A DNA stretch of 64,000 nt, taken from contig JAGCDQ010000051.1 of NCBI GenBank assembly GCA_017651245.1, forward strand, positions 56,536 to 120,535, in the 5' to 3' direction. The notes beneath the pieces were generated by a model. It saw only the letters and a program-made list of their open reading frames with translations. It was not told the origin of the DNA and made no database searches. Positions 24,332 to 41,457 of the stretch are shown here, piece after piece. The first letter of the stretch is position 1, and each line of letters starts with the position of its first letter. The translations under genes were made by a program, and so were the position numbers. Source of the DNA: Bacteroidaceae bacterium (GTDB taxonomy: Bacteria > Bacteroidota > Bacteroidia > Bacteroidales > Bacteroidaceae).

Positions 24332-26497
24332 ATGTCCATTTCTGTCAAAAATATTCTTTTAAGCATCGATGGAACCAATTCCAACAAGTTCAAGATGCAG
24401 TTGGATGGAGCACTTTATCATTTCGACAACTTCCGCATGAGGCAACGACTTATGCAACCATGCGAGTTAGCTTTCACCATGTTCAAAGACCCGATAGAGG
24501 ATATCAGTGAGCCCCAATTCTCTATCTGCAGCTATCTCATCGGTAAAGAAATCCGTCTCACTCTTCAAACAGAGGAGATGGAAACAGAAATCACCAACAA
24601 TAAAGACGAGGGCAAGACGTCAGAAATCGAATTTGAGGGATTCATAACCTCAACACGTGGTACACGTATCGAAAGCAAACAGGCAATCATGGTTACAGCT
24701 TATAGCAAAGACGTTGTACTCGAAGATCATCCTCATTGCCAAATCTTCAATGAAGAAAAGCTAGCAGATATCATCAAGACCATTTATTCCGTTGCTAAAC
24801 TTGATGACAAGGAGATACAGCCCGAGATGGAAGATGAAATATTCTACACAGCACAATATAACGAGACGAACTACAATTTCTTGCGTCGAATGGCACGCAG
24901 ACATAGCGAATGGTTTTTTAACAATGGGACGCTACTTCACTTCGGTAAAATTGAAAATTCCGAAAACATACAACTCGTATATCCCAGTCGTGACATTCCC
25001 TATTATGGAGTGCGATTACAAACCTTTCATCCCAATTTCATTCAAGTAGGCATTTGTTATAACGAAGACGGGAACAATCTTGAATACGCACAAAATACCA
25101 AAGAGGAAATTGGCAACACACTGAGCGATGCAGCATTTAAAGCCTCTGCTGAGAATTATCCACATGAAACAATTCAGACGATGCCTGCTGCATATCTTGA
25201 ATCAGATAAAGAATCAGAAAATTCCAGTCTGGACAAGCCCACCTTTTACGAAGACCCGAAATCCGAGAAATTATGTCAGCGTGCAAACCAACTTATCTAC
25301 GAGGGTAAGACATACTGTTCACGTCTGGAAATTGGAGTACACCTGACCATCAAGGACAACTACATCAGTAATAACGAAGCAAATAACAAAAGCGAGGTCC
25401 AACAAGACGAAATTATTATCACGGAAGTGGTTCATGTTTTCAAAGCAAATGAACAATATGAGAATTCTTTTAGGGGAATAACTGCAGCCTATCCTCACCC
25501 TCCCTACAAAAAAGGAGATATACATCCACGTTGTGATCACCCTATCAAGGCATACGTGGTTGATAATGAAGATCCCAAGCATTGGGGACGTGTGCGATTA
25601 CAATTTCCATGGCAAAGCAAACAATATGCAGAAGGTGACAAAAACGGCCAAACGCCATGGGTACATGTTTTGCAACCCTACACAGGTATGAATGCGGGAC
25701 AGGGTGCGCACCTCATTCCTGAAATTTGGAGTCAAGCACTCGTCAATTTTGAAGAGGGCGACTTCGAACGTCCTTATGTATGTGGTACGCACTATTCCTC
25801 CGCTTACCAAGACGACGAGAAATGGTACGAAGAGCACAACCACATTAAAGCTATTCGCACAGCCAGTGGACACACCATTGAGGTACATGACAAAGACGAG
25901 GATAAAGGAGGATTCATCAAGATATATGACCATCAGTCCAACCACTATGTCATTACGCTCGATACCGACAAAAAACTAATCAGATTAGAATCAGCTGGCA
26001 ACATTGAACTTTCTGCAAAGAAAGACATTGTCATGAATGCAGGGAACAACATGACTATCAATGTTGGAAAACCCAAGGACGGATACAACCTCGACGAAGG
26101 CGACTCAGGTTCCTTCGTCCTCAACGTGGAAAACTACTACTACAACTATGTCGGCTTCGAGCAGCGCGTCAAAGCCGAATTCCTTAGCATGCTCACTACC
26201 AAGAGACGACGCGTCAAAGCCCCCACCTATATTCTCAATTCCGAAGAGTACAACGTGGAAGTACATTCCGAAACGTCAGAAACTCCTGGCAGCTTCATCA
26301 CAGCCACAGACTCCGAACTCAACCTTAGGAGCGACGGAAATGTCAATGTCCGTTCACGCAACGACCTCACCCTCTACGGAGGTACCAATGTCAACATTTC
26401 AGCCAACTTCGAAGCCAAGCTCACCTCCTCCGAAAGCGTCAGCATCAGTGGCACCAGCAGCGTCATCGTGAAAGGATTGCAAATCGAGCTTAACTAA
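24332..26497 (+). CDS. tssI: VgrG (TssI) spike protein
   Basis: 721 residues. An N-terminal gp27-like region contains YNETNYNFLRRMARRHSEWFF; the gp5-like OB fold follows (DHPIKAYVVDNEDPKHWGRV, PWVHVLQPYTGMNAGQG), then VNFEEGDFERPYVCG and a C-terminal beta-helix with AGNIELSAKKDIVMNAGNN and NVNVRSRNDLTLYGGTN. The trimer caps the Hcp tube. From about 26070 the DNA becomes clearly more GC-rich with C-ending codons, and this continues through the next gene, suggesting that the spike tip and the PAAR protein have been exchanged as a block. Confidence 0.95.
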   Translation: MSISVKNILLSIDGTNSNKFKMQLDGALYHFDNFRMRQRLMQPCELAFTMFKDPIEDISEPQFSICSYLIGKEIRLTLQTEEMETEITNNKDEGKTSEIEFEGFITSTRGTRIESKQAIMVTAYSKDVVLEDHPHCQIFNEEKLADIIKTIYSVAKLDDKEIQPEMEDEIFYTAQYNETNYNFLRRMARRHSEWFFNNGTLLHFGKIENSENIQLVYPSRDIPYYGVRLQTFHPNFIQVGICYNEDGNNLEYAQNTKEEIGNTLSDAAFKASAENYPHETIQTMPAAYLESDKESENSSLDKPTFYEDPKSEKLCQRANQLIYEGKTYCSRLEIGVHLTIKDNYISNNEANNKSEVQQDEIIITEVVHVFKANEQYENSFRGITAAYPHPPYKKGDIHPRCDHPIKAYVVDNEDPKHWGRVRLQFPWQSKQYAEGDKNGQTPWVHVLQPYTGMNAGQGAHLIPEIWSQALVNFEEGDFERPYVCGTHYSSAYQDDEKWYEEHNHIKAIRTASGHTIEVHDKDEDKGGFIKIYDHQSNHYVITLDTDKKLIRLESAGNIELSAKKDIVMNAGNNMTINVGKPKDGYNLDEGDSGSFVLNVENYYYNYVGFEQRVKAEFLSMLTTKRRRVKAPTYILNSEEYNVEVHSETSETPGSFITATDSELNLRSDGNVNVRSRNDLTLYGGTNVNISANFEAKLTSSESVSISGTSSVIVKGLQIELN

Positions 26498-26510: not shown

Positions 26511-27506
26511 ATGAACACCGTTAAGAATTCAGCAGGCATACCCTACGTTACGCAGAACGCCATCCTCCGATGCCCCTTCGGACTCATGACCTCCATACTC
26601 AATGTCGTTGACCCCACCCGAGCCTCCATCGGAAAGAACAAGATGGCCGTGCAGTCCGACAAGCTACCCCTCGTCAACATCCCCGTCTTTGGCATGTGCA
26701 CCAGCATCGTAAACCCCGCCGTGCAAGCCGCCACCTTCGCTGCCATGGGGACACTCACCCCAGCAGCCTGTCCAGGAGTCAAGGCCATGATGGGCTGGAG
26801 TCCTCCACCCAGCAACGTGCTCAACGCCACCAGTCGTTACCTTCTCCAGACCTGCACCCTCCTTTGTGCTTTCGGAGGGAACATCCATATCGTTCACTCA
26901 GGGCAAGGAGTAGTCAACCCCATAGCTGTACCCTGTAAGCCCGAAGAAAGCAATTACGAACTGCCCGGATGGCTCGAAGGTGTGAGCACCGTGGCAGGAC
27001 TTACCCCTTGGGGAGCAGGCCTTAGCCTCTACGAGGCAGCCGGAAACGTTTACAACGGCAAATACCTTGATGCAGCCTTGGGCATCCTTCCCCTCAAAAA
27101 AATAGGGAAACTTGCCGGCAAGCCCACCAGCAAAATTTTCAATAAAATGGGCGTCAACACCGAAAACATTGGGCTAAAGATTGACGACGCGCTCGTTTCC
27201 ATCAACCGAAGCAACCTCGGACAGAAAGTTCAGAAAGCCGTCGACACACCCCTCGGGCAGAAACTCACCCACAACGTCTTTGGCGAGTCGGCAAACTCCG
27301 TAGGTCAGAAGGTTGCCAGCGACATCGGCGACACTACCGAGAATTTAGCGAAGAAAGGCATCAGCACCCTATTGAGTTCAGACGAACCAACAGGATTTGA
27401 GGACAACACTGACATCGCAAAGGCTGCAACGGGACTTCCTGCTGATGAATTCGACAAATTCATCGATTATGGAAGTGATTCTTACAAAGAAACAAATGAA
27501 AAATAA
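26511..27506 (+). CDS. PAAR-like (DUF4280) tip protein with C-terminal extension
   Basis: 331 residues. Residues 1 to about 140 match the DUF4280 PAAR-like family: conserved cysteines in AILRCPFG, FGMCTSIV, TPAACPGVKAMMGW and LLQTCTLLCAFGGNI, with a SGQ end. Residues 150-215 (VAGLTPWGAGLSLYEAAGNV, DAALGILPLKKIGKLAGK) resemble the hydrophobic linker that precedes toxin domains in polymorphic toxins. The last 120 residues are unrecognised, with no catalytic motif. It should sharpen the VgrG tip and may carry an effector, yet the next gene is the ubiquitin-like protein and no immunity gene is evident. 14 bp after vgrG. Alternatively the tail is only an adaptor. Confidence 0.82.
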   Translation: MNTVKNSAGIPYVTQNAILRCPFGLMTSILNVVDPTRASIGKNKMAVQSDKLPLVNIPVFGMCTSIVNPAVQAATFAAMGTLTPAACPGVKAMMGWSPPPSNVLNATSRYLLQTCTLLCAFGGNIHIVHSGQGVVNPIAVPCKPEESNYELPGWLEGVSTVAGLTPWGAGLSLYEAAGNVYNGKYLDAALGILPLKKIGKLAGKPTSKIFNKMGVNTENIGLKIDDALVSINRSNLGQKVQKAVDTPLGQKLTHNVFGESANSVGQKVASDIGDTTENLAKKGISTLLSSDEPTGFEDNTDIAKAATGLPADEFDKFIDYGSDSYKETNEK

Positions 27507-27523
27507 AATATATATCACCAACT

Positions 27524-27850
27524 ATGACAGATCAAGAATTTTATCAAGAAGAGTTTATCGTGCTGTTGACGATAGACGGCACGTCTTACGACGAGATTGA
27601 AGTGAAAGTGACGGACCCGAACAGAACGATTCGTGACCAGATCAACAGCATCGTGCAGGTGTTCGAATTGCCCAAGATGGATAATGGTGGTAATCCCATC
27701 CAATACCTATTGGGCAAGTTAATGGAAGATGACGAGGAACCCGCTATTTTGGAGTTTGAGGATGAGAATGGTCGTGAAATGGCACTTATTGACTACGACA
27801 TCCAGCCAATGGATCATCTGCACCTCATCTCTGTGCCTATCGCAGGCTGA
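27524..27850 (+). CDS. Ubiquitin-like (beta-grasp, YukD-type) protein
   Basis: 108 residues. Predicted order is beta-beta-alpha-beta-beta-(alpha)-beta: EFIVLLTIDGTSYDEIEVKV, helix TIRDQINSIVQVFELPK, IQYLLGKLM, AILEFEDENGREMALIDYD, then IQPMDHLHLISVPIAG. The spacing matches ubiquitin-fold proteins of the YukD/EsaB class found with bacterial E1/E2 genes. It ends in a single Gly, directly usable by an E1 without processing. Immediately precedes the E2 gene, in an operon that also has E1, JAB and RING-like genes, so conjugation rather than a T7SS role is the best reading. The target is unknown. Confidence 0.78.
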   Translation: MTDQEFYQEEFIVLLTIDGTSYDEIEVKVTDPNRTIRDQINSIVQVFELPKMDNGGNPIQYLLGKLMEDDEEPAILEFEDENGREMALIDYDIQPMDHLHLISVPIAG

Positions 27851-27891
27851 GATATTCAAAATTTGTGAATCGTATAATTGTAAATGAGAAG

Positions 27892-28554
27892 ATGAATCCT
27901 GCCATAAAGAATTTTGACGAGAAAGAATTGTCAGGCCGCGATGCGCGCCTGCTTCAGGAGTGGAAAGAACTCGATGCCGTGTGCACCAAACGCAGAGCCT
28001 CCAGCCCAGACATCCGCAAACCCTCACTCTCTTATATCATACGCCGTAAGAATGCAACGGGGCTGCCCACCGAGTATGAAATCTGGTATCGTGTGAAATC
28101 CATCGTAGGTGTCGAAGATACAGAGCCACCACGTAAACCCATTTTCGGCAATCTGCACAAGATGAGCGTAGTGCTCCCTAACAATTACCCATCGGCTGAC
28201 GGTAACCCTGTTTTTACGTTCATCACAGATATCTGGCACCCCAACATTCGTTACTCGGGTAGTTTTAAGGGACATGTTTGTCTCACCATCAAGGAGATGG
28301 GTGTATTGGCTTCCATCAAGGACTTGGTACTGCGTGTGGAACGTTATTTGAAATATCAGATGTATCATGCCCAGAACACCTATCCTTACCCCGAAGACCA
28401 AAGTGTGGCAGAATGGGTACGCGAAGAAGGTGAACCCAACGGCTGGGTGAAATTCTCGCAGGAAACACCTGAACCAGAGACGCCCAAACTTGTCGCTGAG
28501 ACACCTGTGGAAGAGGAAAAGCCTACGAAACCTAAGATTTCGTTGAGCATATAA
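27892..28554 (+). CDS. E2 ubiquitin-conjugating-like enzyme
   Basis: 220 residues from ATG 27892 (a GTG at 27865 would add 9). The core matches the UBC fold: SVVLPNNYPSADGNPVFTF, then ITDIWHPNI with the diagnostic HPN tripeptide at 116-118, then GHVCLTI with the candidate thioester Cys at 130. Spacing HPN to Cys is that of eukaryotic E2s. A helix-rich region follows, with a Pro/Glu tail (about 185-220). It should accept the Ubl from the E1 encoded at 35013 and pass it to a target, perhaps through the RING-like protein at 32605. Cytoplasmic, no signal peptide. An E2 this close to the eukaryotic pattern is rare in bacteria. Confidence 0.85.
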   Translation: MNPAIKNFDEKELSGRDARLLQEWKELDAVCTKRRASSPDIRKPSLSYIIRRKNATGLPTEYEIWYRVKSIVGVEDTEPPRKPIFGNLHKMSVVLPNNYPSADGNPVFTFITDIWHPNIRYSGSFKGHVCLTIKEMGVLASIKDLVLRVERYLKYQMYHAQNTYPYPEDQSVAEWVREEGEPNGWVKFSQETPEPETPKLVAETPVEEEKPTKPKISLSI

Positions 28555-28595
28555 TCAGAGCATTTTACTAATGACCCATAAAACCTATCACAAAC

Positions 28596-29654
28596 ATGAG
28601 AAGAACAGTTCTATTCATATTCACATGCTGTCTGTTCAGTCTTATCGCAATGGCCGATGAGCAGAAGAAGGTGCTGCTGAGCAATGATCAGAGCGAGCGG
28701 ACCATCAATTTGGGCTACTGCAACATCTTTGCCCGTCTGAACGCAGAAGATGAGGAAGGTACTGTAAGTATTGAGTTGGAGAACCTTGACGAGTCTAAAG
28801 CCCTCATCGTTTTCGACCGTGCCTATCCAGAAAAGATCATCAAGAAAATGTCGAAGTCTATGTCCATTGTCTATGACAAGACATTTGGTGGCAAAACCAA
28901 GAATCGACTCATTGACCCATGTACGACACCGATGGAGGGCGTACAATTAGTGAAACCATCGGATAAGGCACAATTGACGGAGGTGACGGTGACCAATGGT
29001 GAGAACTCTGTGTGCCTCATTCCTATCTACATCGCCAAACTGAAGGGGAAGAAAGTGATCCTGTTGGAAAAGCAACTCATTGAGTTGAACATCGAGGCAG
29101 ACCTAAAACCAAGTCCTGAATATGTAGCACTGGAGGGCAAATTCACTACACTTGAGAATGAGATTAATCGTCAGACATTTTGTCCCAATCCTAAACATAA
29201 GACTTCGTTGGAAAAACAGGAAGCTGTGTATGTGAAGAAGATCAATGATTTAAAGGCTGAGATTGATCAACAGATTGTTTCTCACAATTGGACGGAAGAA
29301 GATGGTGGATACGTTCGCTACACCGCCCTGAAGAACAAACTCAATGCCATCGACTTGAGTAGTCGTGAACGCGATTGCGGACGCCACAAAGGTGGTGGTG
29401 GTACAAGTGGTCATAGTTGTTCTTACTGCTCATTGTCACTCCAGCAGATTTATCACAAGATGGATGATTACTACAAAAAGATATACAGCAGCAGCGATCG
29501 CAAGGCTGCCAAAGCTAAGGTCATCAAGGAGGTGAATGCACTCTACCAGTGCTGCACAGATTCTTCCTGTAGTAAACATGCCTCTGCATGGAAGAGCGGA
29601 GGTGAGTACAAAACTAAAATCATCGAACGCTACAACCGCATTTCCAACTTATGA
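28596..29654 (+). CDS. Secreted Cys-rich protein of the T6SS/Ubl operon
   Basis: 352 residues with a signal peptide (MRRTVLFIFTCCLFSLIAMA). Residues about 25-170 form a predicted beta-rich domain that resembles the N-terminal domain of the next gene product (compare LIPIYIAKLKGKK here with NLPIYLASYEGKR there). Residues 180-352 are helical and contain pairs of cysteines (SCSYCSLS, YQCCTDSSCSKH), which in the periplasm would be disulfide-bonded. No known family recognised. The position suggests a periplasmic part of the trans-envelope complex. It overlaps the next gene by 4 bp. Confidence 0.6.
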   Translation: MRRTVLFIFTCCLFSLIAMADEQKKVLLSNDQSERTINLGYCNIFARLNAEDEEGTVSIELENLDESKALIVFDRAYPEKIIKKMSKSMSIVYDKTFGGKTKNRLIDPCTTPMEGVQLVKPSDKAQLTEVTVTNGENSVCLIPIYIAKLKGKKVILLEKQLIELNIEADLKPSPEYVALEGKFTTLENEINRQTFCPNPKHKTSLEKQEAVYVKKINDLKAEIDQQIVSHNWTEEDGGYVRYTALKNKLNAIDLSSRERDCGRHKGGGGTSGHSCSYCSLSLQQIYHKMDDYYKKIYSSSDRKAAKAKVIKEVNALYQCCTDSSCSKHASAWKSGGEYKTKIIERYNRISNL

Positions 29655-31171
29655 CAATGCGCTTTTTCAAATTTATCTGTATAGGTGCGTTTGCCCTCAG
29701 CTGCGTGACTGCCTCTGCCAAAGAAGTGAAGGACACGCTCTACTCCAACTCTGGCGATCGCATCATCCTCACCTACAATGTCACCCATTCTGGCAATCAA
29801 ATGAGTGTCCGCTTTACGGGCGCTCAGAAGAAACTCGGTCAAAGCAACCAGAAAAAATATAAGAAACTGGATGAGGTAGCAGTAGTGTTCTTCGACCGCA
29901 ACGGCAACTACCCAGACATGAAGTTCGACGGTATGGAAACCCGAGCTTTCATGGTACCAGCCAATGTAACTTATTCCCGTTCTGGAGATGGTTATTTCCT
30001 TATCAACGATAATCCCTCCCTGCTATTCACTGTGGCACAAAACGAAGATGCCGTATTGAATCTGCCTATCTATTTGGCCAGTTACGAAGGGAAACGTCAC
30101 TACAAGGTGTTCACCCAATGTGGCACACTTGCCTTGAGTAGCAAGCAGACGAAGAAAAGTGGTGGCAGCCAAGGAGGTGGTAGCAGAAGTAACGGAGGAG
30201 GTAGTGGCGATATTCATGCAGCCAATGCTGACAACATCCAGATTGAGGGCATCACCTCTGAGGAACTCGTGGATGAGGGACTTTCTCCGTCAGAAGAAGC
30301 ACTCATTCGTATTAATGGCGTGAAGTCCATGCTGGAAGAGGCTACAGAATACCCCTTCGATGAGGAACTGACACATGAAGTGTCCATGTTGCGCGAACTC
30401 CGTTTCAAAGTCACTGACGATGAAGATGTCAGCAAGCAGATAACAGAGGTACTCGTACTCTACGATGCCAAGAAGAAAGAACTGGCTGGGGCAGCCAAAG
30501 CCAACCAGCAGGCACAGGCGGCCCAGCAAGCTCAAGAAGCACAAGCCGCTCAGGCACGTAGCGATTCTATTTCTGCTGCACAAATCATGCAATCTGAAGA
30601 AGACAAGAAGAACATGATGTGGATTGGCGGTGGCATTGGCGCACTCGTCCTTCTCTTTATAGGTGGTAAGCAAATCATGCAAATGGTCAATCAGAATAAA
30701 CTCCAGAAGCAGCAAAAAGCGATGATGGAGAAGATGATGAAGATTACCCAGCAACAGACGAATTCAATGACAAATATACCAGGCTTAAATGGTATGTCAG
30801 GAATGCCTGGGGCGAACGAAGAGATGCTAGACTTCACTAATTTAGGCGGAGCGGCTGCCGCCACTCCAGGCGTGAAAGATACTCAACAAGCCATCAACAA
30901 CGCTAAATCAACAACCCAACAGGTTCAGCAACAGACGCGCACTTTGAGCCGAGAAGCTGAGGCTGCTAAGCAAAAGTTGATAAGCCTGCGAGCAGCCAAA
31001 CAGGGAAAAGCCGATTCAACTATGGAGCAATCCACATCATTACAAGAAGTAACTGGAACATCACATCCACAAGTTGCAGCTAAACCTCAAGCACACACTT
31101 CTCTCAACGATGCCATACCTGCTAAATATAAACGTTTGGCACCCAAACGAAAAGATACACCCAATACCTAA
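29651..31171 (+). CDS. Single-pass membrane protein, possible T6SS envelope component
   Basis: 506 residues: signal peptide (FFKFICIGAFALSCVTASAK), a periplasmic beta-rich domain (about 25-160) paralogous to that of the preceding gene, a Gly/Ser linker (GGSQGGGSRSNGGGSG), a helical and Gln/Ala-rich coiled-coil segment, one TM helix at about 322-341 (MMWIGGGIGALVLLFIGGKQ), and a cytoplasmic Gln-rich tail with further coiled coil. The topology, periplasm outside and long tail inside, suits a connector between envelope complex and baseplate. No family recognised; it could replace one of the usual TssN-TssQ proteins. Confidence 0.6.
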   Translation: MTMRFFKFICIGAFALSCVTASAKEVKDTLYSNSGDRIILTYNVTHSGNQMSVRFTGAQKKLGQSNQKKYKKLDEVAVVFFDRNGNYPDMKFDGMETRAFMVPANVTYSRSGDGYFLINDNPSLLFTVAQNEDAVLNLPIYLASYEGKRHYKVFTQCGTLALSSKQTKKSGGSQGGGSRSNGGGSGDIHAANADNIQIEGITSEELVDEGLSPSEEALIRINGVKSMLEEATEYPFDEELTHEVSMLRELRFKVTDDEDVSKQITEVLVLYDAKKKELAGAAKANQQAQAAQQAQEAQAAQARSDSISAAQIMQSEEDKKNMMWIGGGIGALVLLFIGGKQIMQMVNQNKLQKQQKAMMEKMMKITQQQTNSMTNIPGLNGMSGMPGANEEMLDFTNLGGAAAATPGVKDTQQAINNAKSTTQQVQQQTRTLSREAEAAKQKLISLRAAKQGKADSTMEQSTSLQEVTGTSHPQVAAKPQAHTSLNDAIPAKYKRLAPKRKDTPNT

Positions 31172-31199
31172 CAACACTCTTCCCTCATATTTTGACACA

Positions 31200-32594
31200 A
31201 TGAAAAAGAGACTTTTCTTATTCTTTTTAGTAGGCTTCCTATCTGTAAGCCTTAACGTACTATCGGCCAAAGAAGTGGAAAACACCGTTATCATTTCGGA
31301 TTTTCGCCAACATATCGAAGCCATACCTTATTTAAACGAAGCCAACATGCAGACGTTGAATACAGAAATCAGCGAACATGTAAAGTGCTTACAGAACTGG
31401 TCAGACAAGGAAGCATATATCAAAGACCATGAACTTCAAGATTATCTGGATCGTCAAAAAGGCTCATTGAAATACTACCAAAATAGTGCTTATGCCATGA
31501 TTGACGATTTTCTGTTGCAATATGCAGAGCAAGGTATTGAGAACGAGCAAGCTTGCCGAGATAGTTTGCTCGCTGTTCTCAATGATCGCACTGGCATGTG
31601 TGAGACCAATCTAAATCTGCTTGAAAGAGAAATGAATAACAATGATGAGCAATCATTCTTCGATAAGATAAACTGGACATGGGTGATTATCGTGGCCGTA
31701 CTTTTGATATGCATTATCTTGTTGATTTCTCTTTCAGGAAGGAAACAAAAAGGAGTTGTTCCACAGCCTAAACCCATGCCCTCCAATGGAGGTTCTGGCG
31801 GCAATACTGCTGGCATCGTCGTTCGACGCAAGACTGCCACTATTCTCAAGAAGCAGAGTCTGGAAGATGTGATAGAAAACCCAGCCTATCTGAAAGTGGA
31901 TGCCATTGATTTTTGTGAGGAGTCGGCTGTCAGAAGACTCTATATTAAAAACACATGCATTATAGATTTATATAACATGTACGCAAGTGACTTGGCCAAT
32001 CCTAATAATGCCAAAGAAAACGGTTGCATGGTATTGGGTAGATGGGTTCACGATACTGAATCTGGCGAATATTATGTATCTCTTGAACAGTTGGTGATGC
32101 CAGGTGACGACGCCATCTTTAAGGAATACGAGTTGAACTTCGGTGGAAAAATCAAGTTAAGCGTACTGGAGCAACTGCGTCGTTTACGTCGTGAAACCAA
32201 TATGCAGTACGACCTCACTTGTTGGGTGCATTCTCATCCTGGATTGTCCGTATTCTTCAGCAACTCCGATTTGAGTGTACAAATGCAGTTGAAACACCCC
32301 ACTCATCCGAACTTCCTCACCGCTCTTGTGGTTGACACGCTCACGCCAAAAGAAGATGTGGGTATTTTCACCTTCCGTCGTGACGGAAACATCAACTCCA
32401 AGAATGAGTTGACAAAGATGTATTCATTGAAGGAATGGTACGCATGGGCACAGCAGAGCATTGCCGAACCACCGATAACGCCCAAAGAACCCACAACGGA
32501 GACAGAAACTGAGACACCTGTTGAACCTGCTCCCACCATCACATCCACCACGACTTCTTCGGATGGAGCCAGTTATCAATATTCCAGCAATTAA
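31200..32594 (+). CDS. Membrane-anchored JAB/JAMM isopeptidase-like protein
   Basis: 464 residues from ATG 31200, chosen because it starts a signal sequence (MKKRLFLFFLVGFLSVSLNV); an upstream in-frame ATG overlaps the previous gene by almost 100 bp. Residues 25-155 are helical and periplasmic; TM at about 158-180 (WTWVIIVAVLLICIILLISL); the cytoplasmic part holds a JAB domain with ENGCMVLGRW (Glu candidate) and WVHSHPGLSVFFSNSD, a full HxHPx6SxxD zinc signature starting at His344. The tail is Thr/Pro-rich. In Ubl systems such enzymes process the Ubl or cut it from targets. As the Ubl already ends in Gly, deconjugation is more likely here. A membrane-fixed, two-sided JAB protein is unusual. 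Confidence 0.82.
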   Translation: MKKRLFLFFLVGFLSVSLNVLSAKEVENTVIISDFRQHIEAIPYLNEANMQTLNTEISEHVKCLQNWSDKEAYIKDHELQDYLDRQKGSLKYYQNSAYAMIDDFLLQYAEQGIENEQACRDSLLAVLNDRTGMCETNLNLLEREMNNNDEQSFFDKINWTWVIIVAVLLICIILLISLSGRKQKGVVPQPKPMPSNGGSGGNTAGIVVRRKTATILKKQSLEDVIENPAYLKVDAIDFCEESAVRRLYIKNTCIIDLYNMYASDLANPNNAKENGCMVLGRWVHDTESGEYYVSLEQLVMPGDDAIFKEYELNFGGKIKLSVLEQLRRLRRETNMQYDLTCWVHSHPGLSVFFSNSDLSVQMQLKHPTHPNFLTALVVDTLTPKEDVGIFTFRRDGNINSKNELTKMYSLKEWYAWAQQSIAEPPITPKEPTTETETETPVEPAPTITSTTTSSDGASYQYSSN

Positions 32595-32604
32595 GAACAA
32601 AACA

Positions 32605-34989
32605 ATGATAAAGAAATTATGGTTAATGGGCGTTCTGTGCGCCATGGTGCTGCAAGTAGCAGCACAAGATGTGTCGCGACTTGAATTCTGCGACAAGAAA
32701 TACGAATATGGAATCGGGCGAGACAGTATTACGCTATTTATGAAAGTGGTGGATTCTGAAGGTAAATCTTGCAAGGAAATATCACCAAGCGACTTAGAAA
32801 AATATCTGGTCATATATGAGGACAAAGCCATCATTGCACCAGACCGCCGGCATATTTCGTTTGTAAATTCGGGACAGAGAATTCCATCCGATTTCACCTT
32901 CTCAGTGCTGGTTGATCTTAGCATTCCCGAAGAGGGAAAAGGTCAAATTTATGAGGCGTTTGGGCAGTTAGTGGAAAGTGCTCCAGACAGCAGTGTGTAT
33001 CTCTCTTTCTTTGGCGATGACGTTACAGCCAGTCAGTTGGTGACAAAGCAGAACCTGAAGAGTTTTGAGTCAAAATTCAAAACGCACTCTGAGAATAAAT
33101 ATTTTTATGGTGCGCTCTATGCTAAATTGGCTGAATTCAATACTACTGGAGCGGAGATGGAAGGCGAGGTAAACACGGCTGATAACTATAGTCGAAATGC
33201 TGCCATCACGGCTCGTGCCCAACGGGCAAAAGACAAAAACATCCTCTTTATTTTCACCGAGGGCAACAAGCGTCCAGATGATGAAATCATTTCATTCATT
33301 GAGGTGACCGACTATCAATCGGATGCTTCGAAGTTAGTACCTCGTGTCTATGCTTTTTATTACACAGGGGAGGGTATAGATGAGAATGTCGAATTGACTT
33401 TACAAGGTGTATCTACTCCACGTGATGCCAATGGTAAGGTATTAGGTGACCGCAAGGGTTCCTACATTCCTTCGGCAGATCTCGGCAATGTATTGAGCAA
33501 TTTCGAGCAAGTGGTGAAAGATGCCATGTATGACTTTGCTTTCACATACCGTGCCACAGAAGGCAAGGCATATACTGGACGCGTATCTTATTCAGCGGAA
33601 TGGAAAGGGATGGAGGCTGGCACAGGTGACTACTCCATCGGTACAGCCGAAACGCCATGGCCATTGCACGAAGAGAATGCTGGGGACCTAGTAACGAAGA
33701 TTTTTGTGGCACTGCTTGTAGCTGTGCTGACCATTGTATTCTTTTTCCTCGTAATGAAGGTGCTGGTACCATTCTTCAAATCAAAAAGTTTCGAATCCAA
33801 ATATTATAAGAAATATGTGCCCGAAGAGAATGTACAGCGTCGCATCTGTACCTACTGTCGTCAAAATATCGAACCAGGACAACTAGTTGTAACAAAATGC
33901 AAGCACATCATCCATGTGAATTGTTGGCAACAGAACGGTTACAAGTGCGTGGAGTATGGTCAAAATTGCAAGGATGGCATCCAAGAACATGTTGATTTGA
34001 AGGATATGTTCAGTGCCTCATCTATGAGAGAAAGCATGCAGGTGTTTTCAGGTATTGGTGCAGGTCTCATCAGTTGGATTATCTTCGAATTGACAGGACG
34101 TGGTCTGTTCCCCTTCATTGGTGACTTCTTTGCTAAAACTTTCTTTCTGAACAAAGAACAAGTCAGCAATTTCTTCGACGACTGCTCTGGCAAGGTATCT
34201 GCTTTCTTGACAGTAGGTCTGTTATTGGGCTTCTTCCTCTCACTAGTGTTCCGCTTCAACGATGAGTACCGCAACAAGAGTGCTTTGATTTACTTGAAGA
34301 TTGTCGGTCTCTCCCTGCTCACAGGCATCATTGGTATGGTGGCAATGGCCATAGGTGGCATCATCTTCTGTCTGCTGCTTTCCGCAGTAGGAACCACCTA
34401 CATCCCTTGGTACTGCTCATTGCCAGCCTATATCTTGTTCTCTATCTGCACGGCATTGAGTCTCACGATCAAATCGTCCATTCCTTTGAAGAGTGCCTTC
34501 CTTGGCGGTCTCTGCTCTGCAGTCATCGGTTTCATCGTACTTTACTTCAGTGGCAGCATCAGCGGCAAGTATGGGTGGATGAATATGCTCCTCGATTTCA
34601 TTATCTATGGTGGTGGACTGGGAGCCTCCCTCGTTACGGTACGTATGTTGGCAGAGAAATATTTCCTTGTCATCAAGAACGGCGTGAAGGCAGGCCAACG
34701 TATTCCAATCCACAAGTGGATGAATGCTACAGGAGGTGGCAAGAAGGTGTCTATCGGTATGACAGGCGAATGCGAAGTGCAGATGAACTGGGAAAAGAGC
34801 AGCAAGGTGGCAAAGGAACATGTGCAACTCTACATCGATCAGGTCAAAACGTTGCCAATGGTGAAACCACTTGCTCCAGGTGTCATCTACAATGTGCGTT
34901 CAGAACTCACTGTAGGCAAACCAATGATTCTCTCAAATGGTGACACATTCAAGATTGGTGACACCATCTTTGAATATGAGGAACAATAA
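32605..34989 (+). CDS. vWA-like / RING-H2-like / multi-TM / FHA-like membrane protein
   Basis: 794 residues from ATG 32605, where a signal sequence begins (MIKKLWLMGVLCAMVLQVAA). Residues about 95-260 resemble a vWA domain (FSVLVDLSIPEE, NILFIFTEGN) with an incomplete MIDAS. TM1 is about 363-389. Residues 415-455 follow a RING-H2 order: C415-x2-C418, C432-x-H434-x2-H437-x2-C440, then C448-x6-C455 (last pair wider than the usual C-x2-C). About six TM helices follow (478-678), then an FHA-like C-terminus (700-794; KEHVQLYI, ILSNGDTFKIGD). RING would face the cytoplasm, so it is the best E3 candidate. The vWA part recalls TssR and the TM part TssN of subtype iii T6SS, but homology is not established. 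Confidence 0.72.
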   Translation: MIKKLWLMGVLCAMVLQVAAQDVSRLEFCDKKYEYGIGRDSITLFMKVVDSEGKSCKEISPSDLEKYLVIYEDKAIIAPDRRHISFVNSGQRIPSDFTFSVLVDLSIPEEGKGQIYEAFGQLVESAPDSSVYLSFFGDDVTASQLVTKQNLKSFESKFKTHSENKYFYGALYAKLAEFNTTGAEMEGEVNTADNYSRNAAITARAQRAKDKNILFIFTEGNKRPDDEIISFIEVTDYQSDASKLVPRVYAFYYTGEGIDENVELTLQGVSTPRDANGKVLGDRKGSYIPSADLGNVLSNFEQVVKDAMYDFAFTYRATEGKAYTGRVSYSAEWKGMEAGTGDYSIGTAETPWPLHEENAGDLVTKIFVALLVAVLTIVFFFLVMKVLVPFFKSKSFESKYYKKYVPEENVQRRICTYCRQNIEPGQLVVTKCKHIIHVNCWQQNGYKCVEYGQNCKDGIQEHVDLKDMFSASSMRESMQVFSGIGAGLISWIIFELTGRGLFPFIGDFFAKTFFLNKEQVSNFFDDCSGKVSAFLTVGLLLGFFLSLVFRFNDEYRNKSALIYLKIVGLSLLTGIIGMVAMAIGGIIFCLLLSAVGTTYIPWYCSLPAYILFSICTALSLTIKSSIPLKSAFLGGLCSAVIGFIVLYFSGSISGKYGWMNMLLDFIIYGGGLGASLVTVRMLAEKYFLVIKNGVKAGQRIPIHKWMNATGGGKKVSIGMTGECEVQMNWEKSSKVAKEHVQLYIDQVKTLPMVKPLAPGVIYNVRSELTVGKPMILSNGDTFKIGDTIFEYEEQ

Positions 34990-35012
34990 TTCCTGAACAA
35001 AATGCATTTCCT

Positions 35013-36215
35013 ATGGCAGAAGTGAAACTGCCCTATGAATGGGGCGATGGGGTCTATACCCTACTCTCTTGGTTCAAGAAAGAAAAAGTGAAGGATGCAC
35101 GCGTGCTCGTGGCTGGTGCTGGAGCATTAGGTAATGAAGTGGTGAAGAACCTAGCACTCTTCGGTGTGGGACATATCTACGTGGTCGATTTCGACCAAAT
35201 AGAAATTTCCAACCTAACACGTTCTATCCTATTCCGTGAAGAAGATGCTTACAGCCATGCCTTCAAAGCTGACATCGTAGCTAAACGTGCCATGGAAATC
35301 AATCCACAGATCAAGGTCACCCCTATTGTGGGCAACCTCTTCTCTGAAGTTGGCTTCGGATTATATAACTCCGTCGATGTTGTCATTGGTTGCCTCGACA
35401 GCCGCATTGCCCGTTATCAACTTAACCGTCTCTGCATGCGGGCTGGTAAGACATGGATTGATGGCAGCATCGAAAATATGACGGGAGCAGTAAGAGTCTA
35501 TGCGCCAGGCAAAAGTTGTTATGAGTGTGGACTTTCACGTGAGGAATTCAACAACATCATGCTCCGCACTGGTTGTGCCGATGTAGTGCGTACACAAGGT
35601 AAGGCGGGACGTATAGCCACCACACCCATCAGTGCCTCCATTGTGGGTGCCATGCAAGTACAAGAAGCCATGAAGGTGATCCATCAAGAAGACGGTCAAG
35701 AAACGCCATTCAAGACCTTGGAGGGTAAGATGCTACGCTACGAAGGCATGACCAACACGATGAATATCTACAAGTTTGCTTCGTGGAAGGGCAATTGCCC
35801 AGCCCATGAACGATGGGACAAAATCACGCAAGGTATAGAACTTTCAGCCACACAAACCGTTGCTCAAGTGCTGAAGAAGTTGAAGGATGTGCTCAATACA
35901 AATATGGTGGAAATCAACATGCGCAACAACAAATTCATTGACAAAATCATCTCAGACCATCCTGAGAAGGAGTTTGAGGTGATGATGCCAGAGTCAAAAC
36001 TTGATGCCTACATCAAGCAGAATGAGGAATTGCGCAAACTCAGTTATCGTACACTGTTCCATAAACACTTTTATGAGAACATCGATAAATCTTTTCCATA
36101 TAAAAACTTGACATTGCAACAGATTGGCATTCCACTTTTCGATGTCATCGAAGTGTCAACCGATAAGGGAGTGTATCATGTGGAACTGACGAATGACGCC
36201 AGTCTATACAACTAA
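35013..36215 (+). CDS. ThiF/E1-like Ubl-activating enzyme
   Basis: 400 residues. Residues 1-260 are the adenylation domain: VLVAGAGALGNEVVKNLALF (ATP loop), YVVDFDQIEISNLTRSILF (with the Asp and Arg of the family), VIGCLDSRIARYQLNRLC. C169 and C172 (CYEC) with C262 and a nearby His (NCPAH) could bind structural zinc. C188 (RTGCADVVRTQGKAGR) is the candidate thioester residue because it lies just ahead of the crossover loop. Residues 270-400 are an extra C-terminal domain, which may recruit the E2. It should adenylate the Ubl C-terminal Gly. 24 bp after the RING-like gene and 2 bp before tssG, so it is embedded between T6SS genes. Confidence 0.87.
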   Translation: MAEVKLPYEWGDGVYTLLSWFKKEKVKDARVLVAGAGALGNEVVKNLALFGVGHIYVVDFDQIEISNLTRSILFREEDAYSHAFKADIVAKRAMEINPQIKVTPIVGNLFSEVGFGLYNSVDVVIGCLDSRIARYQLNRLCMRAGKTWIDGSIENMTGAVRVYAPGKSCYECGLSREEFNNIMLRTGCADVVRTQGKAGRIATTPISASIVGAMQVQEAMKVIHQEDGQETPFKTLEGKMLRYEGMTNTMNIYKFASWKGNCPAHERWDKITQGIELSATQTVAQVLKKLKDVLNTNMVEINMRNNKFIDKIISDHPEKEFEVMMPESKLDAYIKQNEELRKLSYRTLFHKHFYENIDKSFPYKNLTLQQIGIPLFDVIEVSTDKGVYHVELTNDASLYN

Positions 36216-36217
36216 AG

Positions 36218-37114
36218 ATGCAAGAAACAGTGACCCTACCACAACTGCTGCCAGTTGACATCAATGCAGAGTTACTCTTGGCTTATTACCCAGAGGGAGC
36301 CTGCAAAATATCGTTCAGTGGTTTACACAAACGTAACACCTACAACGATATTGTGGACATAGAGCAGCTATCCAATGAAGCCATACACCTCACCCTCAGT
36401 CGCAATAGCCTTTACAATGCGCTCCCCGAGTACATGTTCCACCCCATCGACCGCTTTGATAATCTGCCCAAAGCAGAAGAGAAGGAGCGGTTCGAGCAAG
36501 AATTGGACAAACAGGCTGAGGAGATTGCCAATGCTTACAAATTCTTCTCCCCAATTGACATCCTTTTGTTCCGCCTGAGAGCGCAGGTAAGGGAAAAAGT
36601 TGAAGCCTATGTCAAGGACAATGTCATCATACAACAGATAGTAGGGGACACCATCACACAACAGCAATACAGCAACCGTTTCATTCAGCAACTGCTCCCT
36701 TATCTTCCCCAAAGCCGACTAATACGTGGCAACAAGACATTGCTCACGCTGATGCTCAGAAAGGTTTTTCTTGAAGAAGGGCTTCATATCCGTCTGGAGA
36801 CACATTCTCGTCAGCAACATGATGAAAGTCCACGCTATGCAGATAGCCTTGACATGGAGGTTGGCGACGGATTTATAGGACGTGACTATGAAGATACGGT
36901 GACAACATACTGCATTCAGTATTGGAACGAACAGGAAAGCAGTGAAAACCTTTTCCACTTCCTTGACGAGATAGAAGAATTCAGACAGTTCGTGCAAGAT
37001 TACTTTCTGTCAATCGAGGAAGAGCTGCGTTTCGATATCTCTCACGATGATGCACCCATGCTGCTGACCGACACAGACGCTTCTCATTATCTTAATTATA
37101 ACATCAACATCTAA
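36218..37114 (+). CDS. tssG: TssG-like baseplate protein
   Basis: 298 residues. The subtype iii TssG pattern is present: an N-terminal region opening with ELLLAYYPEGACKISFSGL, then SRNSLYNALPEYMFHPIDR, an acidic helix, YKFFSPIDILLFRLRAQVRE, and QQLLPYLPQSRLIRGNKTLL followed by LRKVFLEEGLHIRLE. TssG forms the baseplate wedge with TssE, TssF and TssK around the VgrG hub in the cytoplasm. It is adjacent to tssK, tssE and tssF. Assigned by pattern recall, so less certain than TssE or TssF. Confidence 0.75.
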   Translation: MQETVTLPQLLPVDINAELLLAYYPEGACKISFSGLHKRNTYNDIVDIEQLSNEAIHLTLSRNSLYNALPEYMFHPIDRFDNLPKAEEKERFEQELDKQAEEIANAYKFFSPIDILLFRLRAQVREKVEAYVKDNVIIQQIVGDTITQQQYSNRFIQQLLPYLPQSRLIRGNKTLLTLMLRKVFLEEGLHIRLETHSRQQHDESPRYADSLDMEVGDGFIGRDYEDTVTTYCIQYWNEQESSENLFHFLDEIEEFRQFVQDYFLSIEEELRFDISHDDAPMLLTDTDASHYLNYNINI

Positions 37115-37129
37115 CATCTATACCATATT

Positions 37130-38104
37130 ATGTCAAAAAGAATTAGCTGGAAAAAGGGCATGCGCCTGACCGACGAAGTATTACTCGCTGCAGACAAATG
37201 CACAGCTGAGGCAATCAACCAATCCCTCATGCTGGCATCTGCCGGACGTTTTGGTCTGCTGCCCTCGTTACGCCCATTCCAATTATCACTCAACATCGCA
37301 AATGGATATGTGGAAGTGACGAATCTTGACCTGTTAGCCATCACACGAGCAGGCGATGTCATAGATTTCACGTTGGCTGGAAGTATCACCGACACTTCCA
37401 ACACACAAATACCCCTTTCCGATGATGAAGAAGAACTTTTCCTCACCATCAACGTTCATCCCGATACGTGGAAAGATGACGAGGATGGCTATATGGAGCC
37501 CACATGCACATTTGAACTCATCACACCTCAAAGCAACCTTTCTGAGCATGCTGTGCCAATTGCCCACCTCATACACAATGGCAATTGGGAGGAGGATACA
37601 GCCCGTTTCCTGCCTCCTGCCATCTATCTTTCAGGACATCATCGTTGGGAAGAATTGCGCATTCAGTTAATTGACATATTGAAAAGCATCCACGAAAAGA
37701 CAAAGCCTCAAGCCCAGTCGCTGGTAAAGACAGCCATCAGCATCTATTGGCCTATCGTGCAGAAGGAGTTGATTCGGATTAACACCGAATATGAGACCTT
37801 GTCACCAGCCATGTTGTTGGGAAGCATCCAAAACGTAGTGAGTGGTTTTGCCATTGCCTGTGAAGTGGATGAAATACTGACATTGGAAGATGCAGCCGTC
37901 TTCTACAATTTTACTCAGGTTTCTTACAACTACCAGAAAGCATATCTACGCATTAAGCAGGGTATTGGCATGTGTCGCGCCATCAATGACAAGATTGACA
38001 AGTTCAGTCTTTTGAATGCGGCACCCAAACCAGAACCGGAACCGGCACCCAAGACAGAACCGAAACCAGATCCACGCCGGAGTTGGCTCGGTAAGCAAAT
38101 ATGA
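37130..38104 (+). CDS. tssK: TssK-like baseplate-membrane connector
   Basis: 324 residues. It begins RISWKKGMRLTDEVLLAADK, like Bacteroidetes TssK, and continues LLPSLRPFQLSLNIANGYVE and LLAITRAGDVIDFTLAGSI, then an all-helical second half and a Pro/Lys/Glu tail (PKPEPEPAPKTEPKPDPRR) that probably is flexible. TssK trimers attach the baseplate to the membrane complex. If the membrane complex here is non-standard, this tail is a candidate contact. It overlaps tssE by 4 bp. Confidence 0.8.
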   Translation: MSKRISWKKGMRLTDEVLLAADKCTAEAINQSLMLASAGRFGLLPSLRPFQLSLNIANGYVEVTNLDLLAITRAGDVIDFTLAGSITDTSNTQIPLSDDEEELFLTINVHPDTWKDDEDGYMEPTCTFELITPQSNLSEHAVPIAHLIHNGNWEEDTARFLPPAIYLSGHHRWEELRIQLIDILKSIHEKTKPQAQSLVKTAISIYWPIVQKELIRINTEYETLSPAMLLGSIQNVVSGFAIACEVDEILTLEDAAVFYNFTQVSYNYQKAYLRIKQGIGMCRAINDKIDKFSLLNAAPKPEPEPAPKTEPKPDPRRSWLGKQI

Positions 38105-38598
38105 AATTCATCAGCACGCCATTGGTCTTCACCAACGATGGGTCACAAATGTTGCGTAACATTGAGGACCGCATTGCCATGCTCGACAACCTGGTAGAAC
38201 TCATCGTGTTCACACCTCGGGGCAGCTTTGAGTCCGATCCAGACTTTGGCTTTGAGTATTGGAACCACGAGTTCTCCAATGTTCACTATCGTGAGTTCAA
38301 CACCAACCAGACCGGTCTGCCCAATCAGGGAGGACTGAAAAATGAAGTCACGCGCAAAGAATGTGAAGATAGCATACGCATCAGCCTTGCCACTTACGAA
38401 CCTATGCTCAAACAGGTGGCCGTGTCCATACAACTCGACTCGGCAGTGGCCAAACAACGGCGCAAAAGACGTATCGCCTCCAAATACGAGGTGATCGTCA
38501 TCGTGGAAGGGAAACTTGATGATGGATTGGGCACCATGCAACCCTATCGCAAAAGTGTTGTGTTCTTGGTCGAGCCCACTGTGCGACGCAATCGATAA
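38101..38598 (+). CDS. tssE: TssE, gp25-like baseplate protein
   Basis: 165 residues. The gp25/lysozyme-like T4 baseplate signature is clear: NIEDRIAMLDNLVELIVFTP, RGSFESDPDFGFEYWNHEF, then CEDSIRISLATYEPMLKQV and a late beta strand. It nucleates sheath assembly at the baseplate. ATG overlaps the tssK stop (ATGA). Size is normal for Bacteroidetes TssE. Confidence 0.9.
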   Translation: MKFISTPLVFTNDGSQMLRNIEDRIAMLDNLVELIVFTPRGSFESDPDFGFEYWNHEFSNVHYREFNTNQTGLPNQGGLKNEVTRKECEDSIRISLATYEPMLKQVAVSIQLDSAVAKQRRKRRIASKYEVIVIVEGKLDDGLGTMQPYRKSVVFLVEPTVRRNR

Positions 38599-40444: not shown

Positions 40445-41457
40445 ACACCCATTTATCGGTGATACGACACCTCTGCACGGCATACCTCCTTTGCTTCCTT
40501 AGCATCGGAGCATCGGCACAATCCTCTGCTGACATTCAGGAATACATCCGCCTATACAGCAAGGCTGCGCTTGACCAAGAACGTGCCTATGGCGTTCCAG
40601 CCTCCATCACCTTAGCACAGGGCATCCTTGAGTCTGGAGCCGGCAAGAGTGGACTGACACGCAACACCAACAACCACTTCGGCATCAAGGCACTGGGAGG
40701 ATGGAACGGTCCTGTGTATTACGCTTGGGATGACGAACCCAACAAGAGCAAGTTCCGTGTCTATGCCTCGGCAGCCGAGTCATTTCGCGACCACTCCGAG
40801 TTTCTGAGGCGCAACAGCCGCTACCAAAGCCTCTTCTCCAAGAGCGTCTATGACTATCGCGGCTGGGCCATAGGACTACAGAAGGCAGGATACGCGACAG
40901 CCAAGAACTATGCGGCGGCACTCATCGGCTTTATCGATGCATACCGCCTTTATGCTGTTAATGGTGGTGTGAAACTCAAGGCAGGCAAGACCGTCATTGT
41001 AACCACCACCCCATCAACGGCTTCAGGAGGCACGGCGGCACGCCCCGTCTTCGATGCCTCTTGTCAACAAGACGAGGAGGAAACCTCCGAAGAGGAAGAG
41101 AGTGTGGGTCAGGCCATCCGCCGTTACGTTGTCGATATCAACGACGTGCGCTGCACCATCCTCTATCCAGGCATGACGCTTTCATCCATCGCCATGAAGT
41201 ACGACATCTCCAAGCAGAAACTGCTGGAATATAACGAAACCACCAGCGAAGAGGATTTGAAGGAAGGTGACATTGTCTTCATTGATAAAAAGAAATCGAA
41301 ATATACAGGCGCAAAAGACTTTCATCACGTAAAAGCCGACGAGACCATCTACAGCATCTCCCAAGAATACGGCATCAAGATGGAGAGTCTGATGAAGATG
41401 AATAAGTTGGATCTCTTCTCACGTCTGAAAGAAGGTGATAAATTAAAACTGAAATAG
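40441..41457 (+). CDS. Secreted glucosaminidase with two LysM domains
   Basis: 338 residues from ATG 40441. Signal peptide (CTAYLLCFLSIGASAQ), glucosaminidase/FlgJ-type domain at about 30-180 (ASITLAQGILESGAGKSGL with the catalytic Glu, NTNNHFGIKALGG, YRGWAIGLQKAGYATAKNYA), an acidic linker, then LysM units near residues 225-280 and 295-338 (SIAMKYDISKQKLLEYN, SISQEYGIKMESLMKMN). It cleaves or remodels peptidoglycan. In a T6SS operon it could clear the wall for the trans-envelope complex; the N-terminal Sec signal argues against it being an injected effector. Confidence 0.85.
   Translation: MNTHLSVIRHLCTAYLLCFLSIGASAQSSADIQEYIRLYSKAALDQERAYGVPASITLAQGILESGAGKSGLTRNTNNHFGIKALGGWNGPVYYAWDDEPNKSKFRVYASAAESFRDHSEFLRRNSRYQSLFSKSVYDYRGWAIGLQKAGYATAKNYAAALIGFIDAYRLYAVNGGVKLKAGKTVIVTTTPSTASGGTAARPVFDASCQQDEEETSEEEESVGQAIRRYVVDINDVRCTILYPGMTLSSIAMKYDISKQKLLEYNETTSEEDLKEGDIVFIDKKKSKYTGAKDFHHVKADETIYSISQEYGIKMESLMKMNKLDLFSRLKEGDKLKLK

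Follow-up and report, generated by a model that had tools for sequence, protein, structure and literature searches.

What is a complete set of ubiquitin-type genes doing inside the gene run of a type VI secretion system (T6SS)? The question is raised by a stretch of 64,000 nucleotides, called the window here, from contig JAGCDQ010000051.1 of a Bacteroidaceae bacterium (positions 56,536 to 120,535, forward strand; assembly GCA_017651245.1; 2.83 Mb in 77 contigs, 86% complete), in which genes for a ubiquitin-like protein (Ubl), an E2 conjugating enzyme, a JAB-type isopeptidase, a RING protein and an E1 activating enzyme, together with two envelope genes, lie between a PAAR-like gene and tssG. 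Judging from the sequence, we moderately favor the view that they form a pathway for Ubl conjugation which serves one contractile injection machine in particular, in this case a T6SS of a Bacteroidota subtype that lacks the TssNOPQR membrane complex. Two of its parts are held more firmly: the genes very probably encode a working cascade, and it is just as probable that the cascade is dedicated to the contractile machine. Papers are cited below by PMC number, and what is said of them holds for the excerpts available.

The cassette consists of the following genes, where the values given with profile matches, here and below, are E-values.

27524..27850, + strand: likely Ubl of 108 amino acids (aa) with a free C-terminal Gly (..VPIAG), from alignment and weak ubiquitin profile matches
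27892..28554, + strand: E2 with HPN motif and Cys130; UQ_con 1.7e-6, UBE2K (E2-25K) 3.9e-8
28596..29654, + strand: envelope protein a, with signal-peptide-like start and Cys/His-rich tail, without known family
29651..31171, + strand: envelope protein b, with signal-peptide-like start, one further transmembrane (TM) helix and a long tail
31197..32594, + strand: predicted membrane-anchored JAB/JAMM isopeptidase; Prok-JAB 0.0022 (under cut-off), RPN11 2.7e-9, hydropathy
32605..34989, + strand: RING membrane protein, with signal-peptide-like start, vWA-like domain, TM helix, RING, five TM helices and FHA-like domain
35013..36215, + strand: E1 of ThiF fold with an extra C-terminal domain; ThiF 4.8e-52, and eukaryotic E1s and MoeB in the PDB

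These belong to a run of 23 genes (17536-46517), all on the + strand and probably co-transcribed judging by their spacing, since gaps from TssH to the Sel1 gene at the end are at most 70 bp. The machine genes on either side are:

17536..19833, + strand: TssH (ClpV-like ATPase); AAA_2, ClpB_D2-small
19871..20323, + strand: TssB sheath; T6SS_VipA 0.0068 (under cut-off), position, and a profile that also recruits canonical TssB
20365..21747, + strand: TssC sheath; PF17541 2.9e-130
21795..22199, + strand: Hcp (TssD); PF17642 3.6e-32
22270..24279, + strand: Hcp domain after about 500 aa of coiled repeats; TssD 1.7e-31 over residues 536-668
24332..26497, + strand: VgrG (TssI); Phage_base_V 6.7e-16, Phage_GPD 2.3e-10
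26511..27506, + strand: PAAR-like DUF4280 protein; PF14107 2.7e-20
36218..37114, + strand: TssG; iterative profile recruits canonical TssG, no Pfam match
37130..38104, + strand: TssK, short form; NCBIfam TssK 0.0056 (far under cut-off), iterative profile
38101..38598, + strand: TssE; GPW_gp25 5.7e-6 (just under cut-off)
38654..40444, + strand: TssF; iterative profile recruits canonical TssF, no Pfam match

TssG, TssK and TssF, none of which matches a Pfam family, were assigned because iterative profiles started from them pick up their counterparts in the canonical loci of Bacteroidota. The coiled repeats of the longer Hcp protein (22270-24279) are apolipoprotein-like, and this extension is absent in some relatives. 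A preliminary description had reported five co-directional families without large gaps, flanked by VgrG and PAAR upstream and by TssG, TssK, TssE and TssF downstream, with E1 and tssG 2 bp apart; open reading frames (ORFs), Pfam and profile searches, and the coordinates agree with it on each count. The PAAR-like gene is likewise only 17 bp from the Ubl gene. New to that list are the two envelope genes between E2 and JAB, the vWA-like and degenerate FHA-like domains of the RING protein, and the kinase, PP2C and Sel1 genes downstream.

The E2 is read from the ATG at 27892, which agrees with its relatives, although the listed ORF begins at a GTG at 27865. It scores 28.1 bits against UQ_con (cut-off 27), and the solved structures found by the profiles of its relatives and of the JAB protein's are UBE2K and RPN11. 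For the RING protein the best Pfam RING family stays under its cut-off (0.0018), and its profile finds RING-H2 proteins weakly, RCHY1 being the best (0.0076). The window Ubl has no meaningful Pfam match; its likely Ubl fold comes from profiles of relatives, of which distant ones match YukD (1.3e-5, just under cut-off) and ubiquitin (8.9e-4, under cut-off). Near the Ubl C-terminus there is neither Lys nor Arg.

The E1 profile finds UBA7 as the top PDB entry (2.6e-35), a sum over two stretches; per single stretch, SAE2 (1.6e-29) and MoeB (2.4e-28) are about equally near and BubCD is far (2.9e-12). The idea that this E1 is closer to eukaryotic E1s than to MoeB was therefore dropped. Its C-terminal domain may be a ubiquitin-fold domain; the domain profile gave only eIF4A at 0.19 or worse. 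A sulfur-carrier pathway of the ThiS/MoaD type lodged in the T6SS run would also contain a ThiF-fold E1, and JAB genes are found in such operons (PMC1779556). The protein indeed reaches 7.1e-37 with TIGR02356, albeit far under that model's cut-off, and we rate this explanation slightly higher because SAE2 and MoeB are about equally close. It is nevertheless very improbable indeed, given that E2 and RING are present with intact residues and that Pfam finds no cofactor or sulfur family among the run's 23 proteins besides the ThiF fold of E1.

An E2 alignment compared with a collection of 84,980 species returned 164 relatives, and the best 80 of them gave the 79 loci analyzed here (handles beginning with L; genomes begin with G). 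By record title they come from Bacteroidota groups, among them Xylanibacter muris, Palleniella intestinalis, Barnesiella sp. An22 and one entered as Parabacteroides distasonis. The E2 HPN motif (WHPN) and Cys are kept in 79/79 relatives, 73 by pattern and six by eye, and the eight RING zinc ligands in all 75 T6SS-type relatives with a RING ORF (73 by pattern; two have one extra residue). In E1, GxGALGNE and CYxC occur in 73/73, the candidate catalytic Cys188 and four zinc ligands are invariant in the 23 aligned sequences, and a stricter pattern around Cys188 fits 66/73. HxHPx6SxxD is found in 70 of 71 JAB proteins, the exception (L054) being cut by a contig end. The Ubl ends in Gly in 76/78 cases, a bare Gly after A or P (AG or PG), and the two others, in which IAG is followed by GSKK or GR, might need trimming. 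Strong purifying selection on the Ubl is seen in three pairs (dN/dS ∼0.01-0.05; computable in 7 of 24 pairs). We argue from the conserved active-site residues that the pathway conjugates. The earlier calls of an E2 with HPN and Cys130, a JAB protein with HxHPx6SxxD, a RING-H2-like membrane protein and a ThiF-type E1 are thus borne out by family or profile matches, by these residue counts and, for RING, by its TM helices. A second, divergent Ubl-like gene lies beside the Ubl in a Sphingobacteriia T6SS cassette (L100:8946-9404), and tandem E2 genes, both with HPN and Cys, occur in another T6SS cassette (L098:9415-10543).

The same residues bear on whether the Ubl could instead be a non-covalent structural or regulatory machine part, as with YukD/EccD of the type VII secretion system or the Ub-like domain of TssN, leaving the enzymes residual or regulatory. 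TssN does carry a Ub-like cytosolic domain that has been proposed to dock the baseplate (PMC10781749), the distant Ubl kin come close to YukD, no JAB is seen in one of the gene orders described below, and most RING ligands are lost in one cassette outside T6SS. A purely structural Ubl would need neither conserved enzyme residues nor a terminal Gly, and the retention of both counts against this explanation, as does an hhalign probability of 0.4% between Ubl and TssN. We consider it unlikely.

By hydropathy, much of the cassette is predicted to lie at the envelope. Proteins a and b, JAB and RING all have a signal-peptide-like start helix; JAB has one further TM helix ahead of its catalytic domain, and in the RING protein one TM helix precedes the RING finger and five lie between the finger and the FHA-like domain. 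Proteins a and b have an N-terminal domain in common (hhalign 97.5%). The vWA and FHA domains were recognized through relatives, in G555 (VWA_2 1.6e-7, FHA 3.2e-8) and in L100 (VWA_2 1.3e-5, just under cut-off). The membrane-fixed deconjugation proposed in the preliminary description accords with the predicted anchoring of JAB by its start helix and TM helix. This topology is also hard to reconcile with the enzymes being secreted effectors that disturb the ubiquitin system of eukaryotic neighbors such as rumen protists. Similarity to eukaryotic E1, E2 and RPN11, and the many hosts that are rumen and gut bacteria, speak for effectors; yet an effector acting on host ubiquitin would find its own Ubl and E1 superfluous, and the subtype carries these genes as part of its core and not as variable cargo. 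We regard this as highly unlikely.

At least one T6SS gene is present in 77 of the 79 loci and at least two in 74, the exceptions being L054, a 6.7 kb contig, and L088 (20.6 kb). Ubl, E2, RING and E1 occur together in 72 loci, with JAB as well in 68, and E1 and TssG overlap slightly or are at most 100 bp apart in 65 of 70 loci that have both. Chance would not give an arrangement whose content and order recur in this manner, and the view that a complete, conserved Ubl cascade belongs to a T6SS subtype holds for these loci. The gene order of the window is referred to as layout I. In layout II, of Alistipes/Parabacteroides type (L107, L108, L111, L114, L115, G325, G299), the order is E1-TssG-K-E-F-Ubl-E2-x-x-RING, with E1 of L111 cut off by the contig end; the cassette is thus not always between tssI/PAAR and tssG, the constancy that the preliminary description had proposed to test, since Ubl, E2 and RING follow tssF here. 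Even draws of genomes gave E2 in 5/295 of the order and 3/395 of the phylum, and the RING protein in 6/201 of the family. Two loci with different cassette types (L092 and L116) carry the same metagenome-assembled genome (MAG) name, RUG11296, and both systems may therefore come from a single genome.

An anti-phage Ubl cassette of the Bil or BUB/CBASS type could also sit within a T6SS run and act on invading phage tails; Bil modifies phage tail structures. Bil operons (BilABCD) likewise hold Ubl, E2, JAB and E1 (PMC11354881). BUB and CBASS Cap2 share the E1 and E2 chemistry, and the window E1 matches the PADLOC CBASS E1-E2 models at ∼1e-14. The cassette of G555 begins with an nSTAND ATPase, a domain common in defense. 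However, PADLOC recognizes only E1, generically, among the seven cassette proteins, and against 72,556 records of plasmids and 50,697 of phages a tblastn search with the window E2 gave no match; the E2 of G555 has no match in the plasmid records either. In viral contigs two E2 alignments gave 57 and 18 pattern matches, none confirmed, and a RING protein search gave a single one, also unconfirmed. The high synteny with core T6SS genes is unexpected for a mobile defense island. Unlike Bil, whose BilA has two tandem Ubl domains in a defense context, the window has a single 108-aa Ubl in a T6SS context, and a RING protein is present in the T6SS and extracellular contractile injection system (eCIS) loci. 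Unlike BUB and Cap2, E1 and E2 are separate genes, the E1 is nearer SAE2 than BubCD, and no CD-NTase family occurs among the run's 23 proteins. Since synteny is high and no match was confirmed in any of the phage, plasmid and viral collections searched, we argue that the cascade serves the machine rather than defense, and we consider the anti-phage explanation quite unlikely.

The Bacteroidota T6SSs described so far as T6SSiii (GA1-3; TssNOPQR) share with the window TssB, TssC, Hcp, VgrG, a PAAR-like protein and homologues of TssE, F, G, H and K, and the whole core (TssB, C, D, E, F, G, H, I and K) is found in the window in one locus. In the published model of T6SSiii, both TssN and TssP are required components (PMC4793230). 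TssC was found in 15/295 genomes of the order, 25/395 of the phylum and 16/201 of the family, in all 52 different genomes, and of these 33 have TssN, nine have the cassette E2, ten have neither and none has both. An overlap of 5.7 would be expected; the chance of observing zero is 2.5e-5, with relatedness ignored. TssN is thus missing from all nine cassette T6SS genomes, and profiles of TssN, TssO and TssR have no match in 91 loci (88 cassette-type plus G258, G273 and G247). In cassette-type loci TssP reaches 0.012 at best and TssQ 6e-5 (L113), isolated weak matches not taken as real, and a TssP match of 4.1e-11 occurs in G247, which lacks both E2 and TssN. A model that requires TssN and TssP may explain why the cassette loci were missed.

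Four of the ten genomes with neither gene (G258, G332, G459 and G487, from one genus) and G273 carry, as far as their contigs show, a kinase- and FHA-rich sister class of T6SS. Its loci (L018, L035 and L019 in G258, L144-L145 in G459, L146-L147 in G487) have FHA, M23 peptidase and peptidoglycan-binding genes, with M23, peptidoglycan-binding and one FHA gene Pfam-scanned in G258 only. G389 has a window-type system on a contig that ends just after PAAR, so that its cassette may lie in a gap or be absent, and the other four, G239, G247, G270 and G514, include divergent and incomplete systems.

A TssC tree separates TssN types (with G247) from Ubl types by three changes, compared with 18.6 in shuffles; G258 falls within the Ubl side and G046 beside the TssN side. 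The tree was made by a quick method and is unrooted, with several long branches, and has 54 rows with TssC of at least 300 aa. G273, G299, L120, L121, L124 and later-added genomes are not included. L095 and L044, apparent duplicates of G404 and G413, were left out of both the tree and the lysine counts below; the apparently matching pair L102/G178 was kept in both, and L072/G324 in the lysine counts. TssK in cassette loci is usually shorter, a block of ∼50 columns of the TssN-type protein being missing in eight of nine cassette rows shown. Since TssN contacts TssK in B. fragilis (PMC10781749), the shorter TssK would fit a different docking route.

We rejected the notion that the cassette occurs only with T6SS, as three genomes without TssC carry it elsewhere. 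In G016, from the order draw, E1-Ubl-E2-JAB-RING lies beside SrfB (1e-213) and a Virul_Fac protein, presumably SrfC; in its Ubl, IIAG is followed by a tail reading YLVV, and an eCIS-type sheath and PAAR are on another contig of the genome. Besides SrfB (PF07520) and Virul_Fac (PF10139), the loci of this genome (L148, L153, L154) hold another JAB gene and a protein in which two Ubl-like repeats occur. G555 and G649, from another family of the class, have nSTAND-E1-Ubl-E2-JAB-RING, and on the opposite strand PAAR adjoins the nSTAND gene and is followed by eCIS_core, with the sheath 23 kb and 46 kb from E2, respectively. Scans of G555 identified sheath, tube, CIS_tube, gp25 and VgrG-like genes, and G649 was matched to it by BLAST. 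A PAAR-like gene adjoins the cascade in the window as well. These cassettes would widen the finding from T6SS to contractile injection systems, in three genomes, two of them with an adjoining eCIS. G555 also encodes a TssR-like protein (L158:18473-19999; barrel 2e-16, vWA 7e-11), which stands against the abstract of a 2024 paper, according to which there are no TssR-like homologues outside T6SS loci.

The predicted membrane placement of RING and JAB, together with the exclusion of TssN, suggests that the cascade acts at the envelope, the docking site of the tail. In the mechanism that we propose, E1 would adenylate the Ubl, mature with its free C-terminal Gly, and transfer it to the E2 Cys. 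RING, held between the vWA-like domain with one TM helix and the five-helix bundle, would bring the charged E2 to a tail component reaching the inner membrane, and the membrane-anchored JAB would remove the Ubl again. Such a tagging cycle would decide whether or when the tail docks, is assembled or is recycled at its site in the envelope, with the four envelope proteins (a, b, JAB and RING) making up a membrane module. That this module stands in for TssN-R is a tentative reading, on which we are close to evenly divided. More doubtful is the identification of the tail tip or tube (VgrG, PAAR or Hcp) as the target, and the leads here are the PAAR neighborhood and Hcp K43 and K117. Lys occupies each of these positions in a fraction of 0.95 of the 37 Hcp rows from cassette loci, in 0.10 and 0.05 of 20 TssN-type rows and in none of two sister rows, where the rows are related and the window is included twice; TssC (K159, K187, K309, K402) and TssH have lysine columns like those of Hcp. 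The broadest form of the proposal is rather unlikely to hold: that T6SS and eCIS of Bacteroidota share an envelope-anchored ubiquitin cascade which tags the tail tip or tube as an assembly-docking checkpoint and replaces the TssN complex in a T6SS subtype, Bil being a defensive use of the same chemistry.

Several results weigh against parts of this interpretation. Those that chiefly contradict a simple replacement membrane complex are the sister class, layout II without JAB and the cassettes outside T6SS. The sister T6SSs have neither cassette nor TssN, and thus an envelope solution without the cascade exists; the preliminary description had named T6SSs lacking the cassette in otherwise identical loci as the damaging case, and such T6SSs are found, albeit in loci that are not otherwise identical. 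No JAMM-motif ORF occurs in the examined stretch of layout II (five of the 79 loci plus G325 and G299). With cassettes present in G016, G555 and G649, an origin of RING and JAB as anchors of a T6SS is not required, and in G555 the RING zinc ligands are mostly lost. TssK of G258 also lacks the ∼50-column block, and G046, a cassette genome, retains it. hhalign comparison of the cassette proteins with TssN, O, P, Q and R indicates no homology, the best probability (22.7%, RING helices with TssN helices) being one that hydrophobic helices alone could give, so the envelope proteins were rejected as homologues of that complex. Both extra domains of the window RING protein look degenerate, the vWA metal motif reading DLSIP and FHA lacking its usual Arg and Ser. 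Against the PDB the Ubl profile matches ubiquitin weakly per copy and over its last third, with mono-ubiquitin at 0.0086 at best; polyubiquitin reaches ∼1e-24 as a sum of weak repeats (i-E ∼9 each) and is not counted beyond this. In cassette loci none of TssG, TssK, TssE and TssF has a lysine conserved at 90% or more, and of the 57 layout I loci that have a PAAR-like gene as well as Ubl, only 38 place the former upstream of the latter at a distance of 4 kb or less. In L088, a Muribaculaceae MAG, Ubl, E2, JAB, RING and E1 are present with no T6SS gene within 20.6 kb.

The run continues beyond TssF with the following genes:

40435..41457, + strand: glucosaminidase with LysM (1.6e-35 and 1.6e-16)
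41482..42975, + strand: Ser/Thr kinase with one TM helix; Pkinase 2.9e-41, hydropathy
43003..44769, + strand: WG-repeat-like secreted protein; WG_beta_rep 0.0019 (under cut-off)
44794..45657, + strand: PP2C phosphatase (1.8e-19)
45657..46517, + strand: Sel1-repeat protein, the last gene of the run (3.8e-57)

The kinase and PP2C might feed signals to the FHA-like domain of the RING protein, although that domain looks unable to bind phosphothreonine. After the run, two consecutive ORFs (46548-47474) are apparent pieces of one permease, which we take to be of NCS2 type, from a real break or an assembly error.

Among known systems, the window thus differs from T6SSiii in that TssN, TssO and TssR were not found, Ubl, E2, E1 and the four envelope proteins are present instead, and kinase and phosphatase genes accompany them. 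Prokaryotic RING and YukD-like Ubl cascades were reportedly described by Burroughs in 2011; we know of no T6SS or eCIS link made for them. The YukD-like character of the distant Ubl kin is a likeness to those cascades, as are weak matches of Prok-RING_1 and Prok-RING_4 in L108 (0.001 and 0.002, under cut-off). The Ub/E1/E2/RING/Rpn11 operon of Candidatus Caldiarchaeum subterraneum has the same five activities, with an RPN11-type JAMM protein and a RING E3, and its Ub is a pro-protein that ends in GG after cleavage (PMC5654768), unlike the bare Gly here; RING and JAB are membrane proteins here, in a contractile-machine context. The vWA-MoxR/FtsH ternary conflict systems also combine JAB, E1, a RING-type E3, Ubl and E2 and are vWA-bearing, although Ubl and E2 are in one protein, alongside MoxR and FtsH-type ATPases, and the available part of PMC7159879 gives no T6SS or eCIS link for them. 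In the open-licence literature, titles and abstract beginnings among the matches listed tie no Ubl cascade to a T6SS or eCIS, in line with the preliminary remark that no such T6SS had been described; the 2011 paper or its 2012 companion may have noted the cassette. In the excerpts available, the word ubiquitin is absent from PMC4714493 and occurs once, within a reference, in PMC8213781.

The locus would accordingly represent a new T6SS variant of which a ubiquitin-like cascade is an integral part, and whose mechanism we offer as a proposal. If this is correct, Ubl modification would be an inherent component of an injection machine in bacteria, and not a defense or cofactor pathway, and the cassette would define a T6SS subtype with an alternative envelope module, missed by detection models that require TssN. 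It would also provide a candidate answer to what bacterial RING-E1-E2-JAB systems modify, namely their own contractile tails. Prokaryotic Ubl tagging could then be tested directly on this compact cascade in named isolates (Xylanibacter muris, Palleniella intestinalis, Barnesiella sp. An22). The findings suggest that some gut and rumen bacteria may operate a weapon by means of ubiquitin-like tagging, where many of their relatives carry other membrane-anchor genes instead.

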